Assembly: GCF_003207795.1 (NCBI RefSeq) | Contig: NZ_NIRT01000001.1 | Span: 124,001 to 188,000 of the forward strand | Direction of reading: 5' to 3' | Source: Komagataeibacter nataicola | Lineage (GTDB): Bacteria; Pseudomonadota; Alphaproteobacteria; Acetobacterales; Acetobacteraceae | DNA length: 64,000 nucleotides | Shown: one piece after another, positions 12,153 to 41,461 of the stretch | How the letters are laid out: every line of letters starts with the position of its first letter | Numbering within the stretch: position 1 is the first letter of the stretch | Translations under genes and position numbers: made by a program | The notes under the pieces: model-generated | Told to the model about the DNA's origin: nothing | Database searches by the model: none | What the model saw: only the letters and a program-made list of their open reading frames with translations

Positions 12153-12917
12153 ATGGGCGCCAACATGCACACCGCCGCAAGCTTTTATGCTTCCCGCCGG
12201 GGCCAGATGGCCGCCCGGCTGCTCGGCCAGCGCATGGCCGGATTCTGGCCCGGAGGCGCGCGTGGGCACATGCTCGGGCTTGGCTACGCCCTGCCCTTCC
12301 TGCCGCTATGGGACCGGCCCGAACAGCCGTGCTTCTCGGCACGGCTCGACACCCCCGTCACGCGCGAGGGGGAGCCGTGGCAGGGGCGCGACTGCGTGGC
12401 GCGTGGCGACAGCCTGCCGTTCGATGACCTGAAATTCGACCGTATCCTGATGATCCACGCGCTTGAAACCAGCGAGGACAAGAACACCCTGCTGCGCCAG
12501 GTCTGGAAAGTCCTCAAGGATGACGGCGTGCTGCTGCTCATCGTGCCCAACCGGGCGGGGCTGTGGGCGCATACTGACAATTCACCCTTCGGGCAGGGCA
12601 CGCCCTTTTCGCGCCGCCAGATCGACCGCTGGCTGGCCAATGCCTGCTTCCGCGCCGAGCGCCATGAAGACGCCCTCTACATTCCCCCCGCCGGTCCCTG
12701 CCCCGCAGGCCCCGCCACCGTGGCGGAATGGACGGGGCGCACCCTTTTCCCCCGGCTCGGCGGCGTGTGCATGATCGAGGCGGTGAAGGATATTTATGCC
12801 GGGGTGCCCACCCGCCCGGCCACAATCATGCCCGCAGGGCTGCAACTGCGGCCCGCGCGGCTGTTTTCGCGCAGCCTCACCCATCGCCAGCGGGGTGGGA
12901 ACGCGCAGGATACTTGA
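12153..12917 (+). CDS. Class I SAM-dependent methyltransferase (substrate unknown)
   Basis: A 254-residue protein with a methyltransferase-11-like core. A degenerate glycine loop ([16 protein letters not shown]) is followed by [20 protein letters not shown] and a strand/loop [20 protein letters not shown], which is the usual methyl-acceptor side. The substrate is unknown. A gene of this type next to a divergent gloB recurs in alphaproteobacteria, but no function follows from that. It is 34 nt upstream of psd and in the same direction. Confidence 0.8.
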
Positions 12918-12951
12918 CCAATTTTGCGGGAATCTCCATGAACATTGTCCC

Positions 12952-13629
12952 ATGTCGCTAATTCAATCCCTCAAGCTTGTCCTTGCCCCGCCGCACCCGG
13001 CCGCGCGCCCCTTCCTGCTCGCCTCCGGCGCGGGTGCCGTGATCGGGCGGCTGCTGCCGTGGCGGGTGACAAAGCTGCTTGGTACGGCCAGTGGCCTGTT
13101 CTTCGGGTTCTGCCTGTATTTCTTCCGTGACCCCGAGCGCGTCACCCCGGCCGAAGCCAACGTGGCCGTGGCCCCGGCGGACGGGCATATCGTCTCGATC
13201 GAGAAAGTGGCCCCGCCGCCCGAACTCGACATGGGCGATGCCCCGGTGTGGCGCATCGCGACGTTCCTGTCGGTGCTCGACGTGCATGTGAACCGCATGC
13301 CCGTCGCGGGCACGGTCACGCGCGTGTCCTACCATGCGGGGCAGTTCCTCAATGCCAGCCTCGACAAGGCATCGGAGCTCAATGAGCGCAATGCCCTGCG
13401 GCTTACGCTCAAGGACGGGCGGCAGCTTGCCGTGGTGCAGATCGCGGGGCTGATCGCGCGCCGCATCCTGTGCGATGCGGAAGAAGGCATGCAGTATGAA
13501 ACCGGCGAGCGCTTCGGCCTGATCCGCTTTGGCTCGCGCACCGACCTGTACCTGCCGGCCGATGTCGCCCCGCTTGTCGAGGTGGGCCAGACCATGATCG
13601 GCGGCGAAACCGTGATGGCGCGGCTCTAA
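12952..13629 (+). CDS. psd: Phosphatidylserine decarboxylase proenzyme
   Basis: A 225-residue proenzyme of the short, archaeal-type Psd class found in alphaproteobacteria. It decarboxylates phosphatidylserine to phosphatidylethanolamine. Autocleavage is expected between Gly194 and Ser195 in [11 protein letters not shown], giving a pyruvoyl group on the small alpha subunit. Residues 45-62 ([19 protein letters not shown]) are the hydrophobic membrane-associating part and precede the conserved [14 protein letters not shown]. It is followed 6 nt later by pssA, which makes its substrate, so the two form a phosphatidylethanolamine operon. Confidence 0.95.
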
Positions 13630-13635
13630 GCGGTT

Positions 13636-14502
13636 ATGGCAGTTCCTCCCCCCGCCAACCGGTCACGCCGCATCCGCAGGCTGAAAAAACGCCAGCGCCC
13701 CCGTGTGCGAGGCCTGTCGTTCAACCGGATGATCCCCAACCTCATGACCATGCTCGGCCTGTGCGCGGGCCTGACGGGCATGCGATTCGGGCTGGAAGGG
13801 CGGTTTGGCGGCGCGGCCACGGCACTGCTCATTGCCGCATGCATCGACGGACTTGATGGCCGCATCGCGCGGCTGCTGCGTGGCACCAGCCGCTTCGGCG
13901 CGGAGTTCGACAGCCTGTCCGACTTCCTGTGCTTCGGGGTGGCGCCCGCCTTCGTGCTGTACCTGTGGGCGCTACATGAAGGGGGGCGGTTTGGCTACAT
14001 TCCGTGCATCATGTTCACGGTCTGCATGGCGCTGCGGCTCGCACGCTTCAATGCCAGCCTTGATGATGACGCCAACCAGCCCAAATACGCCGCCAATTTC
14101 TTTACCGGCGTGCCCGCGCCCGCGGGCGCGGGGCTGGCGCTGTTTCCGCTCTTTTTAGGGCTGGAGGCGCAGCGCCTGCACCTGAACTGGCTGTATGAGC
14201 TTACCCGCGACCCGCTCATGCCCGCGCTCACACTCAGCGGCACGGCCTTCCTGCTCGTCTCCACCCTGCCGGTGTGGTCGTTCAAGAACTTCAAGGTGCC
14301 TTCGCCGCTCATCCTGCCCACCATGCTGGGCACGGGAGCCTATGCCGCCATCCTGATTGCCGAGCCGTGGGGCGCGCTTGCGGCGGCGGGCGTGATCTAC
14401 CTCCTGCTCCTGCCCATCAGCCGGCGCAGCTTTCACCGCCTGCGCCGCGCGGCGGAAGATCTGCAGGAAAGTGACGAACCCGCGCCCCAAAGCCCAGGCT
14501 AA
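13636..14502 (+). CDS. pssA: CDP-diacylglycerol-serine O-phosphatidyltransferase
   Basis: A 288-residue integral membrane enzyme that makes phosphatidylserine from CDP-diacylglycerol and serine. The CDP-alcohol phosphatidyltransferase signature D-x2-DG-x2-AR-x8-G-x3-D-x3-D runs from Asp71 to Asp96, with Gly75, Ala78, Arg79, Gly88 and Asp92 in register. Seven or eight hydrophobic segments follow. The basic N-terminus (RSRRIRRLKKRQRPR) faces the cytoplasm. It is coupled to psd upstream. Downstream lies a half copy of the window's intergenic palindromic repeat, and then the convergent hydrogenase-like operon. Confidence 0.93.
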   Translation: MAVPPPANRSRRIRRLKKRQRPRVRGLSFNRMIPNLMTMLGLCAGLTGMRFGLEGRFGGAATALLIAACIDGLDGRIARLLRGTSRFGAEFDSLSDFLCFGVAPAFVLYLWALHEGGRFGYIPCIMFTVCMALRLARFNASLDDDANQPKYAANFFTGVPAPAGAGLALFPLFLGLEAQRLHLNWLYELTRDPLMPALTLSGTAFLLVSTLPVWSFKNFKVPSPLILPTMLGTGAYAAILIAEPWGALAAAGVIYLLLLPISRRSFHRLRRAAEDLQESDEPAPQSPG

Positions 14503-14581: not shown

Positions 14582-15031
14582 TTATCCTGATGTCCCTCTA
14601 ACACTCGCCTGCCAGCGCACCAGGGCGGCCAGAATTTCATCCGGCGCGGGCGGGCATCCAGGTAGCGCCATGCTGGTGCGCGCCCGTTCGCCCACCCCGC
14701 CCAGCACGGCATAATTGCCGCCGAACAGGCCGCCATCCACCGCGCAATCCCCGATCACGGCCAGCACGCGCGGGCCGGGCATGGCCTGCCAGGCCAGTTC
14801 GACCACCGGCGCCATGCCCGCCGTGAGGCTGCCGGTCAGCAGCAGCATGCCCGCCTGCCGTGGCGTGGGCACGAAGCGGATGGGATGACTCCCCGCCAGC
14901 AACGCCCGCGACAGGCTGGCCAGCTCAAGCGCGCAACCGGTGCAGCCACCGCTTTCGATATGAAAGATGTCCAGCGCCTCAAGTCGCGGCAAAGGCGTGC
15001 CTTCGGGCCCGAACAGATGCAGTTGCGCCAT
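14582..15031 (-). CDS. Hydrogenase-4/NuoB-like small subunit with one [4Fe-4S] cluster
   Basis: A 149-residue protein of the NuoB/HyfI/HycG family (complex I 20-kDa subunit). Four cysteines in the expected spacing, Cys30, Cys33, Cys96 and Cys126 (GGCTGCALE, GDCAVDGG, LPGCPPAPDE), should hold the proximal cluster (N2-like). Cys30 and Cys33 follow the CxxC spacing of hydrogenases, not the adjacent cysteines of NuoB. There is no lysine in the protein. The ATG at 15031 shares one base with the stop of the large-subunit gene (TAATG). It is the last gene of the six-gene operon and corresponds to hyfI. With the nickel site lost in its partner, its redox function is unknown. Confidence 0.85.
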   Translation of the reverse strand: MAQLHLFGPEGTPLPRLEALDIFHIESGGCTGCALELASLSRALLAGSHPIRFVPTPRQAGMLLLTGSLTAGMAPVVELAWQAMPGPRVLAVIGDCAVDGGLFGGNYAVLGGVGERARTSMALPGCPPAPDEILAALVRWQASVRGTSG

Positions 15032-16431
15032 TACAGGTCCGCCCCGGTGGCTGACAGGCCCAGCGAGACCACAATCAGGTCCACATCCTCATAAGCCGCG
15101 CCGGACAGGATTACGGGCAATGCCTGCGCCAGCGCCAGTGACGGGTCGCCACACCACCAGGCGGCAACATGCCCCGCCTCCAGCCGCAGCCAGTGCCAGA
15201 TGGGGCCTGCCGGGCCTTCGGCCCAGCCCAGACCTTCCCCGCCTCCGCCTTCGGCCTCCATGACAGAGGCTTCAGGTGGGGTAGCAAGCGCGCACAGGCT
15301 GTCCCCGATCTCGCTCAGGCGGGCATCAAGCCGGTCGGTGATATCGCCCGGCCCCTTGTCCGCCGCCCGGGCGTTACAGCCCATGATACCCCAGCGGGCA
15401 GCCATTGTGGCTGATAGCACGCCCTTGCCACGCGCCTGCGCCGCAAGGCCACGAGGCCGCCAGAACAGCCGGTGCAGGCTCGCGTGCCCCGCTGCCAGCG
15501 CAGCCAGTTGCGTCCCCTCCACACACACCGGAAAGGTGGCTGCGGGCGGGATGACATCAAACAGCAGGCGTCGCCCGCAAAGCTCCCTGCAGGTCTGGCG
15601 CACCTGCTCCAGCATGGTGGCGGCCAGGGTGGCGCTGCGTCCATCCCCCAGCATCGCGCTGGCCTGCGCCAGCACATCCAGATGGGTGGCAATCCGTTCC
15701 ATGGCGCCCAGCATCACGCCTGCCGCCACGTCCTGCGCGGGCATGGCAGTGCCGGTAGCGTTGTGCAGGGCACGGGCAAAAGCAAGCTGGTGCGCCACGG
15801 TCGCGGTTGCATCAATCCGGGCGACCAGCCGCGCAGCCTGCTGTGGCGCAAGCCCCCGCAGGCGTGCGGCCAGCCCCCGATGCGCGTAACCCATGCAGGG
15901 CTGCACCGCCTCGATGCGCTCACCCGGCAGGCCGAGCCTCAGATGGAACGGCGCGCGGAAATTCCCCTCCGCCGGGCCATAACCCAGCACCGTGCCGCCT
16001 GCCTGCATTACTGCCGGGCCGTCGATGAACTCCCGCCCCTCCGGCAGACCGGGCATGGGGGCGGGATGGGCCACCAGAGGGGGTGCGACTGGCCATCGAC
16101 CCTGATCGAGCCACGGATCACGTCTGCCGCCAATGGCCGGAATGCCCCACAGGTCATGGATGATGCGCTCCGGCGCCCCTGCGCCTATACGCACGGGCGA
16201 CAGGGCGGGATAACCCTCAGGTGGCGTCACGACACTGGCAACCAGCGCGGTCTGGCCATAACGGAACAGGGCATGCACCTGCACGCCATCAGCCCATAGC
16301 CCCAGCAGGGGCAGGTCCGCGTTATGCAACCCCGCGATCATGGCCCGCCACGCATCGGCATCGAGCACAAAGCGCCCAGCGCAGGAGGTAGGAGCACCCT
16401 GCCGGATAAGGGCTGCTACCTTAGCGCTCAT
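15031..16431 (-). CDS. Hydrogenase-4/NuoCD-like large subunit lacking nickel ligands
   Basis: A 466-residue protein. Residues 1-120 resemble NuoC (ERIIHDLWGIPAIGGRRDPWLDQGRW) and 120-466 resemble NuoD/HycE (GNFRAPFHLRLGLPGERIE, CMGYAHRGLA, GAMERIATHLDVLAQ). Group 4 [NiFe] hydrogenases carry CxxC pairs near R-x-CGIC and DPCxxC. Here the first site reads RLVARIDATATVAHQLAF (203-220) and the C-terminus reads SLGLSATGADL (456-466), so all four nickel ligands are absent. It cannot be a [NiFe] hydrogenase. The fused NuoC-NuoD layout is that of HycE/HyfG. ATGA overlap upstream and TAATG downstream. The nearest described group is the energy-converting hydrogenase-related (Ehr) complexes of unknown activity. 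Confidence 0.85.
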   Translation of the reverse strand: MSAKVAALIRQGAPTSCAGRFVLDADAWRAMIAGLHNADLPLLGLWADGVQVHALFRYGQTALVASVVTPPEGYPALSPVRIGAGAPERIIHDLWGIPAIGGRRDPWLDQGRWPVAPPLVAHPAPMPGLPEGREFIDGPAVMQAGGTVLGYGPAEGNFRAPFHLRLGLPGERIEAVQPCMGYAHRGLAARLRGLAPQQAARLVARIDATATVAHQLAFARALHNATGTAMPAQDVAAGVMLGAMERIATHLDVLAQASAMLGDGRSATLAATMLEQVRQTCRELCGRRLLFDVIPPAATFPVCVEGTQLAALAAGHASLHRLFWRPRGLAAQARGKGVLSATMAARWGIMGCNARAADKGPGDITDRLDARLSEIGDSLCALATPPEASVMEAEGGGGEGLGWAEGPAGPIWHWLRLEAGHVAAWWCGDPSLALAQALPVILSGAAYEDVDLIVVSLGLSATGADL

Positions 16432-17489
16432 GCCAGCACCATCCCGCCACGCAGGGCCAGTGCCAGCACCATGCAGCCCAACGCCAGCGCCAGGCCTGCC
16501 CGCGCCCGTGCAGCCGGGTCCGGTTCCGCCCCGGCAGACATGCGGGCAAATACAGGCCACAGGCAGGCTCCGGCCAGCAGGGCGACACCCGGCGCGGCCC
16601 CCATTTCAGCCAGTAGCACAAGGGCCAGCGCCACCCCTGGCAGAAAGGGCGGCCACAACAGGCTGAAAGGCCCTGCCATGCGCCGGACTCCACCGCCACA
16701 GGCCAACGCCAGCAGGCAGGCCGCAAGCGGCAGGGATGCCATGGCAGGCGGCAGCCCCGCAGCCAGCACCACCCAGCCCGACCAGTCCATGCCGCCCGAG
16801 GGCGCACGAGCCCCGGGCCGCAGCGACCACAGCAGGCACACGCAGCCCAGAAAGGTCAGCGCGGCACGAAGGGCGGGCCACGCCATCACCGCCTGCGCCA
16901 GCACCGGCATCGTGGCCAGCAGCGCCATCTGCCGCTCCGCGAGCGCCTGCCCGCGTGCGCTGCCCGACATGACGCCACAGGCCAGCAGCAATCCGCCCGC
17001 CAGCAGCACGGCACCGCCCTGCTCCTGCCGCGCGCCCCACCCGGCCTGCAGCACGAACAGCCCGCCCTGCGCCATAACCAGCCCCCCCAGGCCCGTGCGC
17101 AGCACGGTCCAGTCACCCTGCCTGCCAAAAGCAAGGTACAGGCCCAGCGCCAGCCCGATGAACATGACCAGCAGGTCGCACCGCCCGCACGCCACGGCCA
17201 GAGTCGCATTGGCTGACAGGATGAAGGGCTCGACCCCCGCCATGCGGCCCTCCTCCCGCGCCGTCGTTTCCGGCATGAAAATGCGTACGCACAGCGCCAG
17301 TGCCGGGCCAGCCAGCATCAGCGCCTGCGCCATGGCAGGAGCAGCCTGACAGCCAACCGCGCACAACCCCAGAAGCAGCACCGCCAGCAGGCCACGCAAA
17401 GCGCGCGGGCCACCGGTTGCCATCAGGGCCATGACCGCAAGCAGCATCCAGCCCACCACCAGACTGATGAAAAGCGCGGGTGACATCAT
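16428..17489 (-). CDS. Membrane subunit in the hyfF position of the hydrogenase-like operon
   Basis: A 353-residue, very hydrophobic protein with about ten predicted membrane helices. By position and operon order it corresponds to HyfF (antiporter-like), but it is about 170 residues shorter than usual and I cannot align a NuoL/M/N core with confidence. It contains no lysine, so the conserved membrane lysines of antiporter-like subunits are missing. Starts at 17489 (ATGA overlap with the preceding gene) or 17486 (TGATG) are both possible. The 3' end overlaps the large-subunit ATG by 4 nt. It may be a scaffold or quinone-side membrane arm piece; that is inference. Confidence 0.7.
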   Translation of the reverse strand: MMSPALFISLVVGWMLLAVMALMATGGPRALRGLLAVLLLGLCAVGCQAAPAMAQALMLAGPALALCVRIFMPETTAREEGRMAGVEPFILSANATLAVACGRCDLLVMFIGLALGLYLAFGRQGDWTVLRTGLGGLVMAQGGLFVLQAGWGARQEQGGAVLLAGGLLLACGVMSGSARGQALAERQMALLATMPVLAQAVMAWPALRAALTFLGCVCLLWSLRPGARAPSGGMDWSGWVVLAAGLPPAMASLPLAACLLALACGGGVRRMAGPFSLLWPPFLPGVALALVLLAEMGAAPGVALLAGACLWPVFARMSAGAEPDPAARARAGLALALGCMVLALALRGGMVLA

Positions 17490-18031
17490 GGTGCCATCCC
17501 ACCCGACCGGCGCGCGCGCAGCAGCACGAGGTTCAGGACCGCTACCGCCACGAGCGTTTCCACCATGACCAGCGGGCTGTCGGCCAGCCCCGCCAGCAGC
17601 ATCACGCCATCGAGCCCGCAGGCCAGCCCCGCGCACAGGGCGGCAGGCGCGCGGGCAATGCACGCCCCCCACACCCCGCACACAATGGCGGATAATCCCG
17701 CCAGCCCCATAAGCCGCGCCGTCATGCCACCGGGCATGCCGGGCACGATCACCTGCGCCAGCACCGCAACACAGACCAGCCCACCGCAAAGGCGCAGGCC
17801 GCTGCGCTCACGCGGGCCTGCCTGCCCGTGCAGCATCTGCACCCCCAGCAGCCCGACCAGCCCCGCCTGTGCGCCCGCCAGCAGGCACGCCATTCCCACG
17901 CTGCCCTGCGCCCATTGCCACAGCCACACGCATGCCGCAGCCAAGCCCGCATGCCAGGCAAGGCCGCCACCCCACCCCCCGGAGCCGGAAAGCGACACAA
18001 TCACCACCATGCCCAGCAACAGTACAAGCAT
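17486..18031 (-). CDS. HyfE-like small membrane subunit
   Basis: A 181-residue protein with six predicted membrane helices. It sits in the hyfE position (between the NuoH-like and hyfF-position genes) and has about the length of HyfE (around 216), which carries a NuoK-like part. The tail SPLVMVETLVAVAVLNLVLL has the acidic residue within a helix that is seen at the end of HyfE proteins. No lysine is present. The start is the ATG at 18031, 2 nt after the preceding stop. Family assignment rests mainly on synteny and topology. Confidence 0.65.
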   Translation of the reverse strand: MLVLLLGMVVIVSLSGSGGWGGGLAWHAGLAAACVWLWQWAQGSVGMACLLAGAQAGLVGLLGVQMLHGQAGPRERSGLRLCGGLVCVAVLAQVIVPGMPGGMTARLMGLAGLSAIVCGVWGACIARAPAALCAGLACGLDGVMLLAGLADSPLVMVETLVAVAVLNLVLLRARRSGGMAP

Positions 18032-18033
18032 GC

Positions 18034-18999
18034 TCAATCCGCCCCCCGGCCCGCAAACAGCAGCACCCCGGCCATCAGGGCGCATAACAGGGCAAGCCCC
18101 GCCCGCCAGCCCGCATGCTGCCTGCCCGCCGAGACCACGAATACCCGCAGCCCCGCAACGCACCCGCAGGCCAGCAGCATATGCCCGGCCCACAGCCCCA
18201 TCGCCCCCAGCAGCGACACGCCCCGCCATGAGCGGGCCATGAGATCGGGCTCCACAATCCCTTCGGGCCAGACCAGATCACGCGCCAGCATCATCCACAC
18301 CACCGCCAGCAGGTCACGCGCATACAGCGCCACCGCGCGGTCGGGGCCTGCCAGATCCTCCAGCATGGTGGCAAACAGGCGTAACGCCGTGCCATCGCTT
18401 TCCTCCACTCCCGCCAGCACCAGCGCCGCCGCCACCAGCGCCAGTGGCACACGCACCACGTTCATGTCCGCCACATGCGCCTGCCGCACCAGCCCCGCCA
18501 GCGTGCCATCGGGCAGACACAACCCCAGCACCACGCAGACCAGCAGCAGCACGGGCTGGATCATGATGCCAAGACACGCCGCCTTCAGCCCCGCATGACC
18601 GGGCCGGGCCAGCCCCGCCGCAAGGGCCGTGACCACAAGGGCCAGAAACGCCATTTCCAGCAGGCCACCCACGATCAGCAGGTCCGACAGGTCGCTGCCG
18701 GGCAGGCCGATGCAGAATGAAGGCACCAGCCCTGCCGCGGCCAGCGCCGCTGCAAGGCCCAGCCAGGGGGCCACCGCCGTAACCTGCGCGCCTGCGGCCG
18801 AGCGCACCCCCGGCTGCCGCCACGCATGGCGCAACACGCGCCAGTGGGCCAGCGGGTCGGGCGGGCGGCGCTCGCCTTCCATGCAGGCCGCCATCCAGCG
18901 CAGCAGGGCAATCCAGACCGGCGCCATCAGCGCAACCAGCGCCATATGCCAGCCCGCCAGCAACAGCGCCTGCATGTGTGCCGCAAGGAATGGTGCCAT
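18034..18999 (-). CDS. NuoH/HyfC-like membrane subunit
   Basis: A 321-residue membrane protein of the respiratory-chain subunit 1 family (HyfC/HycD, NuoH). Helix-loop features include HWRVLRHAWRQPGVRSAAGA and a loop VEESDGTALRLFATMLEDLAGPDRA (read in two pieces). That loop occupies the place of the acidic NuoH loop facing the quinone or cluster entrance. Only one lysine occurs in the protein. The ATG at 18999 shares a base with the preceding TAA (TAATG). In complex I and Hyf this subunit anchors the hydrophilic arm to the membrane. Confidence 0.78.
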   Translation of the reverse strand: MAPFLAAHMQALLLAGWHMALVALMAPVWIALLRWMAACMEGERRPPDPLAHWRVLRHAWRQPGVRSAAGAQVTAVAPWLGLAAALAAAGLVPSFCIGLPGSDLSDLLIVGGLLEMAFLALVVTALAAGLARPGHAGLKAACLGIMIQPVLLLVCVVLGLCLPDGTLAGLVRQAHVADMNVVRVPLALVAAALVLAGVEESDGTALRLFATMLEDLAGPDRAVALYARDLLAVVWMMLARDLVWPEGIVEPDLMARSWRGVSLLGAMGLWAGHMLLACGCVAGLRVFVVSAGRQHAGWRAGLALLCALMAGVLLFAGRGAD

Positions 19000-20858
19000 T
19001 ACCCCTGCCCCTGCCACGCAATGAACATGAGGGCGAGAACGCAGGCCACCACCAGCACCACCGGCCCCGCCAACCGCCGCCCGCGCCATGCGCCCGCCAC
19101 ACGCCCCGCGCCTGCCAGCACGAGCCTGCGCCCCTGCCACAGGCTACGCGCGTAATCACGCACGAAACGCCGCCGCGCCGGTGCCGCCACGGCCATATCG
19201 AGCAGCATGCGCGCGGGGTTGCCCGGCCCCACCTGTGTGAGCGGATCGCCAAACACCATCCACGGTGGCACCACGGGCGCGCCCTGCTGCCACCCCGCCA
19301 CCTGCCGCGTGGGCGTGCGGCAGGCCAGCCAGCGCACCACCGCCACCACGCCACCCACCAGCGCGACAAACAGGCACAGCCGGGCGGGATGCAGCGCAGC
19401 GCCCCCATCGGGCGATGTCAGGGCAACCACCGCCAGACCGGCCCATCCGCCAGCCGCCCCCGAGCCAGCGCCCTGCATCAATGCCAGCCACCAGCCGGGC
19501 CAGATGGAAACCAGCACGATCGGCAGTCCCGCCACCAGCACGGCCCATTGGTCGCGCACGGGCGGGTCTGCCGCCCCCGCGCCACGCGGGGTGCGCGGCC
19601 TGCCACACAGCATGACCGCGACAATACGCACAAGGGCCAGCATCCGCACCGCCCAGCCCACGCCCAGCACGGCCAGCGCCAGCAGCAGCGGCACCTCGCC
19701 CGCCAGTCCACCCGCATGCGGCATGGACGCCAGCAGGCGCAGCAGCATCCAGATAATGGAAAAACCAAGTAGTGGCGGCAGCCCGCTCTCGGCCAGCAGC
19801 GCCAGCGCGAACAGCGCGGACAGGCGCGGCATGAGCACCCCCAGCCCGCCCAGCCGGAGCAGCGAGAGCGCACCCGCTTCGCGCTCCATCACATCAAGCG
19901 CCCGGGCGGCCAGCACGCCAGCAAGCAGCAGGCCCGCCACCAGCATGTAGGTGCGCCCGGCGCAACCGGCCATGCCGGGCAGGTCATCGGCCCGGGCCAG
20001 CAGCATGAGGCCCGCGAGCATGATGATGATGGCCCCCGTGCCCCCTGCCAGCCCGGTCAGGACCCGGCGCGCATCAGGCGCGCGCAGCGCCCGCCATGAG
20101 GCGGTCATGTAAAACAGGCACCCCGCCACGATCAGCACGCCGCCCCAGCGCATGTCGGCCACCGCCGTGCCTGCGGGCAGGCGCGCCCACAGGCTCATGG
20201 CGGCGATCATCGCGGCGATATCGGCCATGTGGAACGGGCGCAGGCCGCGCGGGGCCACCCTTAGAGAAAGCGAAAGCCCCAGCAGCCCCCGCGTGGCCAG
20301 CCAGCACAGCCCGGGCAGCAGGTAATCGACCTGACCGGGCAACCGGCTGCCCGCCGCCAGCAGCAGCAGGGCCATCATGTCGGGCGCGTGCCGCCTGCCT
20401 GCCTGTGGCGTGCGGCACAACGCCAGCAGAACCCATCCCGCCCCGATGGATGACACGACGCTCCCACCGCTCACCACAAGGGCGGCGCCAAGGCTGGCCG
20501 AACCATCACGCGGGGTGCGGGCCAGGGCGGCTACAAGCCCAAGCGGCACCAGCAGCACCACATCGGAGCCGCCAGCAAAAACACCCGACCAGGCCACCAC
20601 CCCGCCGGGCAGGGCGCACCCGTGCGAACAGGCGACAGCCAGGCCACACACCACCAGCCAGCCTGCCGCCAGCACGGGCCCTGCCCTGCGCTCCTGCCCC
20701 GGCAGGCTGGCGCGCAGGGCGGTTGCCAACCCCACCACAAGCAGGGCAACGACAAGGATGACAGGAATGATGATGGCCCTCCGGCTTGCCCCCGGCTGGC
20801 CGGGCGGAATCAGATCACGCCCGGCTGCCCCTTGCGGCGTGGCGGCGCGATACTCCAT
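18999..20858 (-). CDS. HyfB/NuoL-like antiporter-type subunit without lysines
   Basis: A 619-residue polytopic protein with more than 14 hydrophobic segments. It is similar in length to HyfB/HycC (about 610-670) and contains a LPPLLGFSIIW segment resembling the conserved LPPLxGFxxKW of antiporter-like subunits, with the lysine replaced. The whole protein has no lysine, so the proton-channel lysines of NuoL/M/N are absent. The ATG at 20858 has GGAG 4 nt upstream; the TTG 3 nt earlier is less likely. It is the first gene of the six-gene operon (hyfB-C-E-F-G-I order). Proton pumping by this subunit is therefore doubtful. Confidence 0.75.
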   Translation of the reverse strand: MEYRAATPQGAAGRDLIPPGQPGASRRAIIIPVILVVALLVVGLATALRASLPGQERRAGPVLAAGWLVVCGLAVACSHGCALPGGVVAWSGVFAGGSDVVLLVPLGLVAALARTPRDGSASLGAALVVSGGSVVSSIGAGWVLLALCRTPQAGRRHAPDMMALLLLAAGSRLPGQVDYLLPGLCWLATRGLLGLSLSLRVAPRGLRPFHMADIAAMIAAMSLWARLPAGTAVADMRWGGVLIVAGCLFYMTASWRALRAPDARRVLTGLAGGTGAIIIMLAGLMLLARADDLPGMAGCAGRTYMLVAGLLLAGVLAARALDVMEREAGALSLLRLGGLGVLMPRLSALFALALLAESGLPPLLGFSIIWMLLRLLASMPHAGGLAGEVPLLLALAVLGVGWAVRMLALVRIVAVMLCGRPRTPRGAGAADPPVRDQWAVLVAGLPIVLVSIWPGWWLALMQGAGSGAAGGWAGLAVVALTSPDGGAALHPARLCLFVALVGGVVAVVRWLACRTPTRQVAGWQQGAPVVPPWMVFGDPLTQVGPGNPARMLLDMAVAAPARRRFVRDYARSLWQGRRLVLAGAGRVAGAWRGRRLAGPVVLVVACVLALMFIAWQGQG

Positions 20859-38889: not shown

Positions 38890-39481
38890 TCAGGCCAGCC
38901 GCAGCCGCGCGGGCGGCACAAGGCCGAGCGCATGCGGAATGGTCCAGACCTCATGCAGGGTGCGCACCTTGCGAAACCCCGCCCGCAGGTAATTGGGCAG
39001 CGCACGCGGATGATCGGCCGTGCAGGTATTGACCCTGAGCGCCGCAGGCCGCAGCCCCCAGGCCCGTGCCACCATGTTATGCAGGAAGGCCTGCCCCACC
39101 CCGCGCCCGATCCATGCGGGCAGCAGGCCGAAATAGGCGATGTTCACGTCAGGCCCGTAGCGGCTGTCGAGTTCGCAGAAACCGGCAGGCTCGCTGCCAT
39201 CATAGAGTACATGCACGGCAATGCCGGGGCCTGACAGCAGGCGGGCAAGCTCGGCATCGGGCATGACGCGGCGCAGCCACCAGCAGTAATCCTGCCCCAC
39301 CGCATCATACAGGGCGCGGTACCACGCAACCCCTGGGCGGAAGGTCTGGCGGATGCTGTAGCCCGGCGGCAGCGCCGGAGGAATTCCGGGTGGCGGACGG
39401 TCCATGCACAGGAACGTCACATCCACCCCGATCCGTGTTCCACCCCCATCCGGCTCATCGCGGCTGGGGGTACATGGAACC

Positions 39482-39492
<11 letters not shown>
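38890..39492 (-). CDS. GNAT-family N-acetyltransferase
   Basis: About 200 residues with a GNAT core. [20 protein letters not shown] and [30 protein letters not shown] (read in pieces) hold the acetyl-CoA loop (R/Q-x-x-G-x-G as IGRGVGQ), and [23 protein letters not shown] is the final motif. The substrate is unknown. The start is unclear: the ATG at 39492 lies inside the last 11 nt of rpoD, which would couple it to the sigma factor, whereas the ATG at 39405 fits the usual N-terminus better but has no ribosome site. Confidence 0.82.

Positions 39493-41461
<1,969 letters not shown>

Follow-up and report, generated by a model that had tools for sequence, protein, structure and literature searches.

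A pump-less operon of Ehr-type descent in Komagataeibacter nataicola that may encode a membrane redox complex with a single Fe-S cluster

The window analysed here is a stretch of 64,000 nucleotides (nt) from Komagataeibacter nataicola (assembly GCF_003207795.1, contig NZ_NIRT01000001.1, positions 124,001-188,000), and our subject is an operon of six tightly packed genes on its minus strand (window 20858 down to 14582), which stand in the hyf order B-C-E-F-G-I. To judge from their sequences these genes encode an Ehr-type complex (ehrABCDLS) by descent. The operon belongs to an Acetobacteraceae clade of complex I relatives which seems to have lost catalysis, the quinone site and the ion pump, and which, with odds slightly better than even, has been kept across many genera as a membrane-embedded, pump-less iron-sulfur (Fe-S) complex with a new function, perhaps without Fe-S in a few lineages. 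A new function is probable because the nickel site and the pump residues are lost and the genes are nevertheless kept by selection. As the job for which the complex was reused we favour, with a probability of about 0.5, that of a non-pumping membrane redox complex with one single cluster.

A first-pass annotation of the window had stated that the large subunit lacks a cysteine at both places where nickel is held in hydrogenases, and an alignment with HycE bears this out. The large subunit G, a HyfG/EhrL descendant of 466 amino acids (aa) (15031..16431, minus strand), reads RIDATATVAH at the first nickel-ligand motif (residues 205-214; 15790..15819, minus strand), where HycE has RVCGICGFAH, and ends with SLGLSATGADL at the second (15034..15066, minus strand), where HycE has SLDPCYSCTDR followed by a tail. 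All four nickel ligands (RxCGxC, DPCxxC) as well as the C-terminal tail are therefore missing from G, and the nickel-ligand motif was found in none of the aligned family members. The small subunit I (NuoB/HyfI/EhrS type; 14582..15031, minus strand, 149 aa) does possess the cluster cysteines 30, 33, 96 and 126 named in the same annotation; their codons lie in 14654..14944 (minus strand, from 14944 down to 14654), the spacing is the CxxC spacing of hydrogenases, and one [4Fe-4S] site is expected. These four cysteines are kept in 21/21 sequences of a close comparison and in 33 of the 35 pump-less Acetobacteraceae loci described below.

The membrane subunits and the pocket of G were compared between the window together with 14 loci of the genus and 61-70 Ehr-type complexes, nearly all from outside the Acetobacteraceae (two loci of the B set are metagenome-assembled genomes titled Acetobacteraceae), at those charged residues and cysteines which are conserved in at least 95% of the Ehr-type reference complexes. 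In B, a degenerate antiporter-like subunit descended from HyfB/EhrA (18999..20858, minus strand, 619 aa), the antiporter-core residues E143, K223, H230, H237, K254, H344, H348, K352 and E407 are replaced in 14/14 genus loci, and some arginines are kept among them. The numbering is that of an annotated Rhizobium protein, which is reached from the sites 127/207/238/336/391 of a 657-residue row by adding 16. The best-anchored loss is that of the glutamate of transmembrane helix 12, since GFVSEW has become GFSIIW with the LPPxxGF motif retained; Ile369 of B (19752..19754, minus strand) stands in its place inside the kept motif LPPLLGFSIIW. Independent of any alignment is the count of lysines, which is zero in B of the window and of 13/14 genus relatives (the remaining one has 1), whereas 66 other Ehr-type B proteins have 4-14 and three antiporter-type proteins encoded in the same genome have 8, 10 and 4. 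E and F of the window have no lysine either, and cysteine C552 of B, conserved in 60/61 Ehr-type complexes, is also lost. Trp, Arg and Asp positions can be found which are invariant in 21/21 B and C sequences.

The NuoH/HycD-like membrane anchor C (18034..18999, minus strand, 321 aa) has lost E134, E142, D200, H205, E207, H212 and E213 in 14/14 genus loci and retains E193 as well as D106 and E200. Its loop at about residues 200-210 (18370..18402, minus strand) is shortened at the place that holds D200, H205 and E207 in other Ehr-type complexes; in the structure of formate hydrogenlyase (FHL) a comparable loop and glutamates are reported to connect the redox site with the membrane arm (PMC9474812). 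G has lost H156, E161 and D210 in 14/14 genus loci, the GPxH...E loop reading GPAE...A in the window, and the canopy arginine, lost in the same 14/14 loci, is kept in 6/6 other acetic acid bacterial loci compared. The quinone residues His38 and Tyr87 of complex I (Nqo4 numbering) are not present in G, where by alignment reading Arg159 and Ala208 stand at these positions. Judged by the lost residues, the antiporter-like subunits would not be able to move ions. We therefore regard the complex as a derived member of the Ehr type by descent and, because the antiporter residues are lost, not as a working Ehr pump. The first-pass annotation had offered two readings, a quinone- or protein-linked redox module or a complex reused for another purpose. 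With pump residues, GPxH loop, canopy arginine and complex I quinone residues gone, the coupled, quinone-linked form of the former is weakened, and the latter fits better.

Trees of the large subunit were built from quick searches with 87 and 75 rows, the smaller one without 28 named rows and four short loci; the EhrL protein of Geobacter is not among the rows. Ehr-type large subunits stand apart from HyfG/HycE and NuoD with values of 99-100 in the Shimodaira-Hasegawa-like approximate likelihood ratio test (SH-aLRT), and G of the window groups with the ligand-less Ehr-type proteins, in agreement with its earlier description as a relative of the cofactor-less Ehr complexes. The Ehr-type gene set, namely two antiporter-like subunits, a NuoH-like, a HyfE-like, a large and a small subunit, was found complete, F being recognised through intermediates only. 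The window lies deep in a mostly Acetobacteraceae clade, whose early-branching rows from Siccirubricoccus, Roseomonas and Plastoroseomonas are of the ordinary type. Pump loss marks one single clade of 35 tree rows with a support of 98 (four rows are unscored for B). B, C and G could all be scored in 54/69 loci of the family, the other 15 being partial loci or loci in which one of the hits to B, C and G was missing or merged, and 48 of the 54 stand in the tree. Thirty-five of these 54 loci fail all three tests (pump, channel and pocket), 18 pass all three and one, L191, is mixed, with the pocket kept and pump and channel lost. The failing loci include 15 from this genus, and in 34 of the 35 all five B residues are gone. 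Two passing loci (L082 and L217) come from one genome and have identical large subunits, and partial states occur at loci such as L207.

For the question of selection, full-length frames of each gene were compared in 15 copies of the genus; frames were chosen from stop to stop, so that the absence of internal stops stands for an open frame of roughly equal length. No genus match to G has a stop inside. The median ratio of nonsynonymous to synonymous substitution rates (dN/dS) in a close set of five is 0.32 for B, 0.10 for C, 0.20 for E, 0.34 for F, 0.28 for G and 0.15 for I, and in a wider set of ten 0.32, 0.26, 0.36, 0.40, 0.28 and 0.23 in the same order; three flanking genes have medians of 0.04-0.07 in the close and 0.05-0.15 in the wider set. 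C and I have the lowest values of the six, which fits a core of cluster plus anchor. Between two species a transition-weighted count gives dN/dS of 0.11-0.42 for the six genes with bootstrap upper bounds of 0.20-0.54, and under neutrality 3-15 stops per gene would be expected (14.8 in B, 9.5 in G). Because the frames are open, the bounds of dN/dS are below 1 and the place of the operon is conserved, we conclude from these comparisons that the operon is kept under moderate constraint. The view that it is kept as one unit is supported by the full-length frames of the 15 copies.

The large subunit is present in 19/19 genomes of the genus searched (best E 1e-105 or lower). In the family 235/249 genomes match G at E <= 1e-3, a count which includes NuoD, and 208 have a best E under 1e-12; for the phylum the count is 337/398 at E <= 1e-15, NuoD and catalytic hydrogenases included, with 66 below 1e-90. 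A scan of named genomes gave at least 587 stretches, of which 570 were confirmed and 80 kept; the matches listed include Siccirubricoccus, Roseomonas, Azospirillum, Bradyrhizobium, Rhizobium and Rhodopseudomonas. Annotated plasmid loci of Rhizobium, Bradyrhizobium, Methylovirgula and Burkholderia carry the same six genes in the same order, in a Methylocalor plasmid F and G are separated by an additional small gene, E is unannotated in an Azospirillum plasmid, and a Rhodococcus plasmid has the six genes with I first. In this last locus (Rhodococcus sp. ZPP plasmid pRZP3), where the small subunit leads, one conserved B lysine is replaced by Asn, and in the loci of Rhizobium, Bradyrhizobium and Methylovirgula a small helix-turn-helix regulator gene lies just upstream of hyfB.

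Compared with the order A-B-C-D-E-F-G-H-I-J-R of E. coli K-12 hyf, the operon has the Hyf-type order without A, D and H, as stated by the first-pass annotation, and J is absent as well. The absence of A, D and H, which had been thought worthy of note, is ordinary for the Ehr type because the same six genes occur in Rhizobium, Bradyrhizobium, Burkholderia and others. Next to the operon and convergent to it lie psd and pssA (12796..14502, plus strand, assigned by Pfam), which are outside the complex and serve as a synteny anchor. Within the stretches fetched, pssA adjoins the operon in 14/15 genus loci, 13/20 other pump-less loci and 0/18 loci of the intact type, and psd, pssA and holC adjoin many pump-less operons and none of the 18 intact ones; the place of the operon thus differs between the two types. 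A recent plasmid copy was considered and rejected, since no near match to the operon was found in the plasmid collection and pssA is so regularly its neighbour in the genus and in the other pump-less loci.

The homology of I, G and B to hydrogenase and complex I subunits is, on sequence comparison, regarded as real. I matches Pfam PF01058 (E 5.6e-20), and its best match by sequence in the PDB is FHL subunit 7 (E 1.1e-21); G matches the NuoD model of NCBIfam (E 2.4e-16, under the curated cut-off of the model) and, as its best match by sequence in the PDB, FHL subunit 5 (E 3.6e-8). B matches hydrogenase 4 subunit B of NCBIfam (E 1.6e-13, likewise under the curated cut-off) and reaches 35.8 and 62.4 bits against profiles of ordinary Ehr-type B. 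A structure model of B has a mean predicted local distance difference test (pLDDT) value of 52 and is confident at about residues 235-460 only, so that its Foldseek matches, the best being chain C of the FHL entry 7z0t, which we take to be HycC, lend weak support.

No supporting match was found for C, E and F in Pfam or NCBIfam, and the PF00146 profile does not reach C; its support comes from ordinary Ehr-type loci, whose profile it matches at 72.5 bits. Neither E nor F is picked up by profiles built almost wholly from outside the Acetobacteraceae. E, a small membrane subunit which is probably a distant HyfE relative (17486..18031, minus strand, 181 aa), was recovered after three rounds of iteration, with a profile-profile E of 1.6e-5 and a probability of just 55.8. 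The membrane protein in the HyfF position, F (16428..17489, minus strand, 353 aa compared with about 485, without lysine), is assigned by position and by a chain of intermediates: iteration connects HyfF with F proteins of other acetic acid bacteria, and a comparison of profiles links these to F of the genus (probability 98.1, E 1.4e-13). Direct profile-profile comparison of acetic acid bacterial F with HyfF fails (probability 0.04 and 3.7 in two comparisons), unrestricted iteration from HyfF pulled in B and never arrived at F of the window, and an AlphaFold2 model of F alone has a mean pLDDT of 51.6. The open reading frames overlap by 1-4 nt at four junctions and are separated by 2 nt at C/E, in line with the tight spacing described before. 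NuoD, NuoH and NuoL/M-type genes are present separately elsewhere in the same genome. Elsewhere in the window, a 673-codon open frame (39404-41425) has no Pfam match at E 1e-5 and overlaps a long frame on the opposite strand.

As to the job of what remains, we prefer the redox complex to the scaffold and relic readings weighed below because among features of a catalytic type only the Fe-S ligands persist. An ancestor inside the Acetobacteraceae lost the antiporter pump residues, the NuoH-like glutamate path and, in the large subunit, the coupling pocket. I with its [4Fe-4S] ligands, G, the anchor C and the membrane proteins B, E and F, which have few of the charged residues of a pump, remain in the genus and presumably assemble. 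Electrons might reach the cluster singly from a partner in the membrane or in solution and could then move on, at a chamber between C and G, to a protein or a small hydrophobic acceptor, and turnover would take place without H2 and without ion transport. Reduction at the proximal cluster has been proposed for MBS, a relative without H38 or Y87 (PMC7684303).

Several observations weigh against this redox reading. In L191, from genome G117 of the same family, the small subunit has no cluster cysteines and its large subunit retains the H/E/D pocket residues, and L180, L189 and L190 show no recognisable I in the neighbourhood of the operon; the clade therefore cannot have a redox role throughout. 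In L189 and L190 the operon is down to B, C and G, with C overlapping G directly, no space for E and F and no match to either elsewhere in these loci. The site in I is a full four-cysteine site of the hydrogenase type, unlike the three-cysteine catalytic type of MBS. In the close set the dN/dS of the operon exceeds that of the three flanking genes by a factor of about 1.4 to 9, and for C the value climbs to 0.26 when the wider set is taken. The joint loss is essentially one evolutionary event, so that the fact that the losses go together carries no independent weight, and a test of co-loss with independent pairs had 2 pairs, gave no significance and had no power. A working FHL is also reported to lack one such lysine (HycC Leu208), and its H2 production to survive several single HycC mutations (PMC9474812).

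The same observations bear on what else the operon could encode. The Ehr scaffold might have become a platform for assembly or for organising the membrane, without redox function, the cluster being structural or on its way to loss. This reading, which is possible although we would bet against it, would account for the missing pocket, pump and glutamate channel (E-channel), for L191 without cluster ligands and L180, L189 and L190 where no I was found, for the missing E and F of the latter two and for the invariant Trp, Arg and Asp positions; it does not explain why the cluster cysteines are kept in the close sequences and in nearly all pump-less loci, nor the low dN/dS of I in both sets. A slowly decaying relic without present function would fit a protein change faster than in the flanking genes, a stepwise shrinkage and the loss of E, F or I in some lineages. 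We consider it unlikely, as the frames are full-length in 15 copies and those of G are free of internal stops, the bounds of dN/dS stay below 1 for every gene where neutrality would have left many stops in B and G, and G occurs in every genus genome searched. Relatives in which the operon is full of unfixed mutations, which would speak for such decay, were not found.

That ion movement and quinone reduction persist via other residues appears improbable. B does retain the LPPxxGF motif and a confidently modelled second half of its fold, C retains D106 and E200, and HycC manages without one lysine and with several point mutations (PMC9474812); B, E and F of the window are, however, free of lysine, the E-channel residues and their loop are lost, and G has no quinone residues of complex I. 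An ordinary [NiFe] hydrogenase whose cysteines were lost in this strain only or by sequencing error is hardly credible. The gene order is that of hyf, but strain-specific loss and error are refuted by the aligned relatives, none of which has the nickel motif, and a genuine hydrogenase is ruled out by the position of G, which does not group with the catalytic [NiFe] enzymes, and by the lack of a HypD match in the genome. The earlier statement that the window has no maturation gene thus extends to the whole genome for HypD, the one Hyp gene searched. HypD has a match in 1/19 genus genomes (G005:C49:18329-19369), and a true [NiFe] hydrogenase may sit elsewhere in that genome.

Ehr complexes are described as lacking the Ni/Fe-coordinating residues and are suspected of coupling redox reactions to charge movement, a trait which does not enter their definition there (PMC6349859); their genes are named ehrABCDLS (PMC6688271). 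Ehr-like operons of unknown function are reported from Sulfobacillus (PMC4378227), and in Geobacter the role of Ehr has, according to the source, never been investigated, though its subunits are abundant on formate (PMC7894505). The window shares with such complexes (e.g. Geobacter sulfurreducens GSU0739-45, Methylacidiphilum and Sulfobacillus) the same kind of gene set and a large subunit without Ni/Fe ligands (PMC6349859, PMC6688271, PMC4378227, PMC7894505), and with the Ehr-type operons fetched the absence of a ferredoxin gene. The ordinary Ehr-type loci fetched keep pump residues and pocket, whereas the clade of the window has lost both and F is shortened from about 485 to 353 residues; sequences from Geobacter, Methylacidiphilum and Sulfobacillus are not part of this residue comparison. 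Ehr-type descent itself is already known and common, and the joint loss of pump residues, glutamate path and pocket is the new point. No description of a pump-less Ehr variant or of an Ehr/hyf operon of acetic acid bacteria was recognised among the open-access titles and abstracts listed.

With E. coli hydrogenase 4 and FHL the window shares the gene order and the CxxC-type small subunit, but it lacks the nickel cysteines, the C-terminal tail and HyfA/D/H/J, and its genome lacks a HypD match. With respiratory complex I (Nuo) it shares homology to NuoB, NuoD, NuoH and the antiporter subunits; its operon has no NADH module NuoEFG, and I carries CxxC instead of the tandem CC of NuoB. MBS of Pyrococcus furiosus, like the window, has no H38/Y87 and no NiFe centre (PMC7684303), but it keeps ion-pumping subunits, 2/4 nickel cysteines and a catalytic cluster with three cysteines, whereas the window has four cysteines in I and no pump residues. 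The likeness to MBS would be one of working only, and membership is not claimed. Long evolutionary conservation is reported for the central coupling elements of the complex I superfamily (PMC9474812). The clade, which has dropped pump residues, glutamate path and pocket and kept the genes, is a natural experiment on which coupling parts are removable and what the remaining frame is used for, and it offers aerobic, easily grown hosts in which to ask what an Ehr-type complex does.

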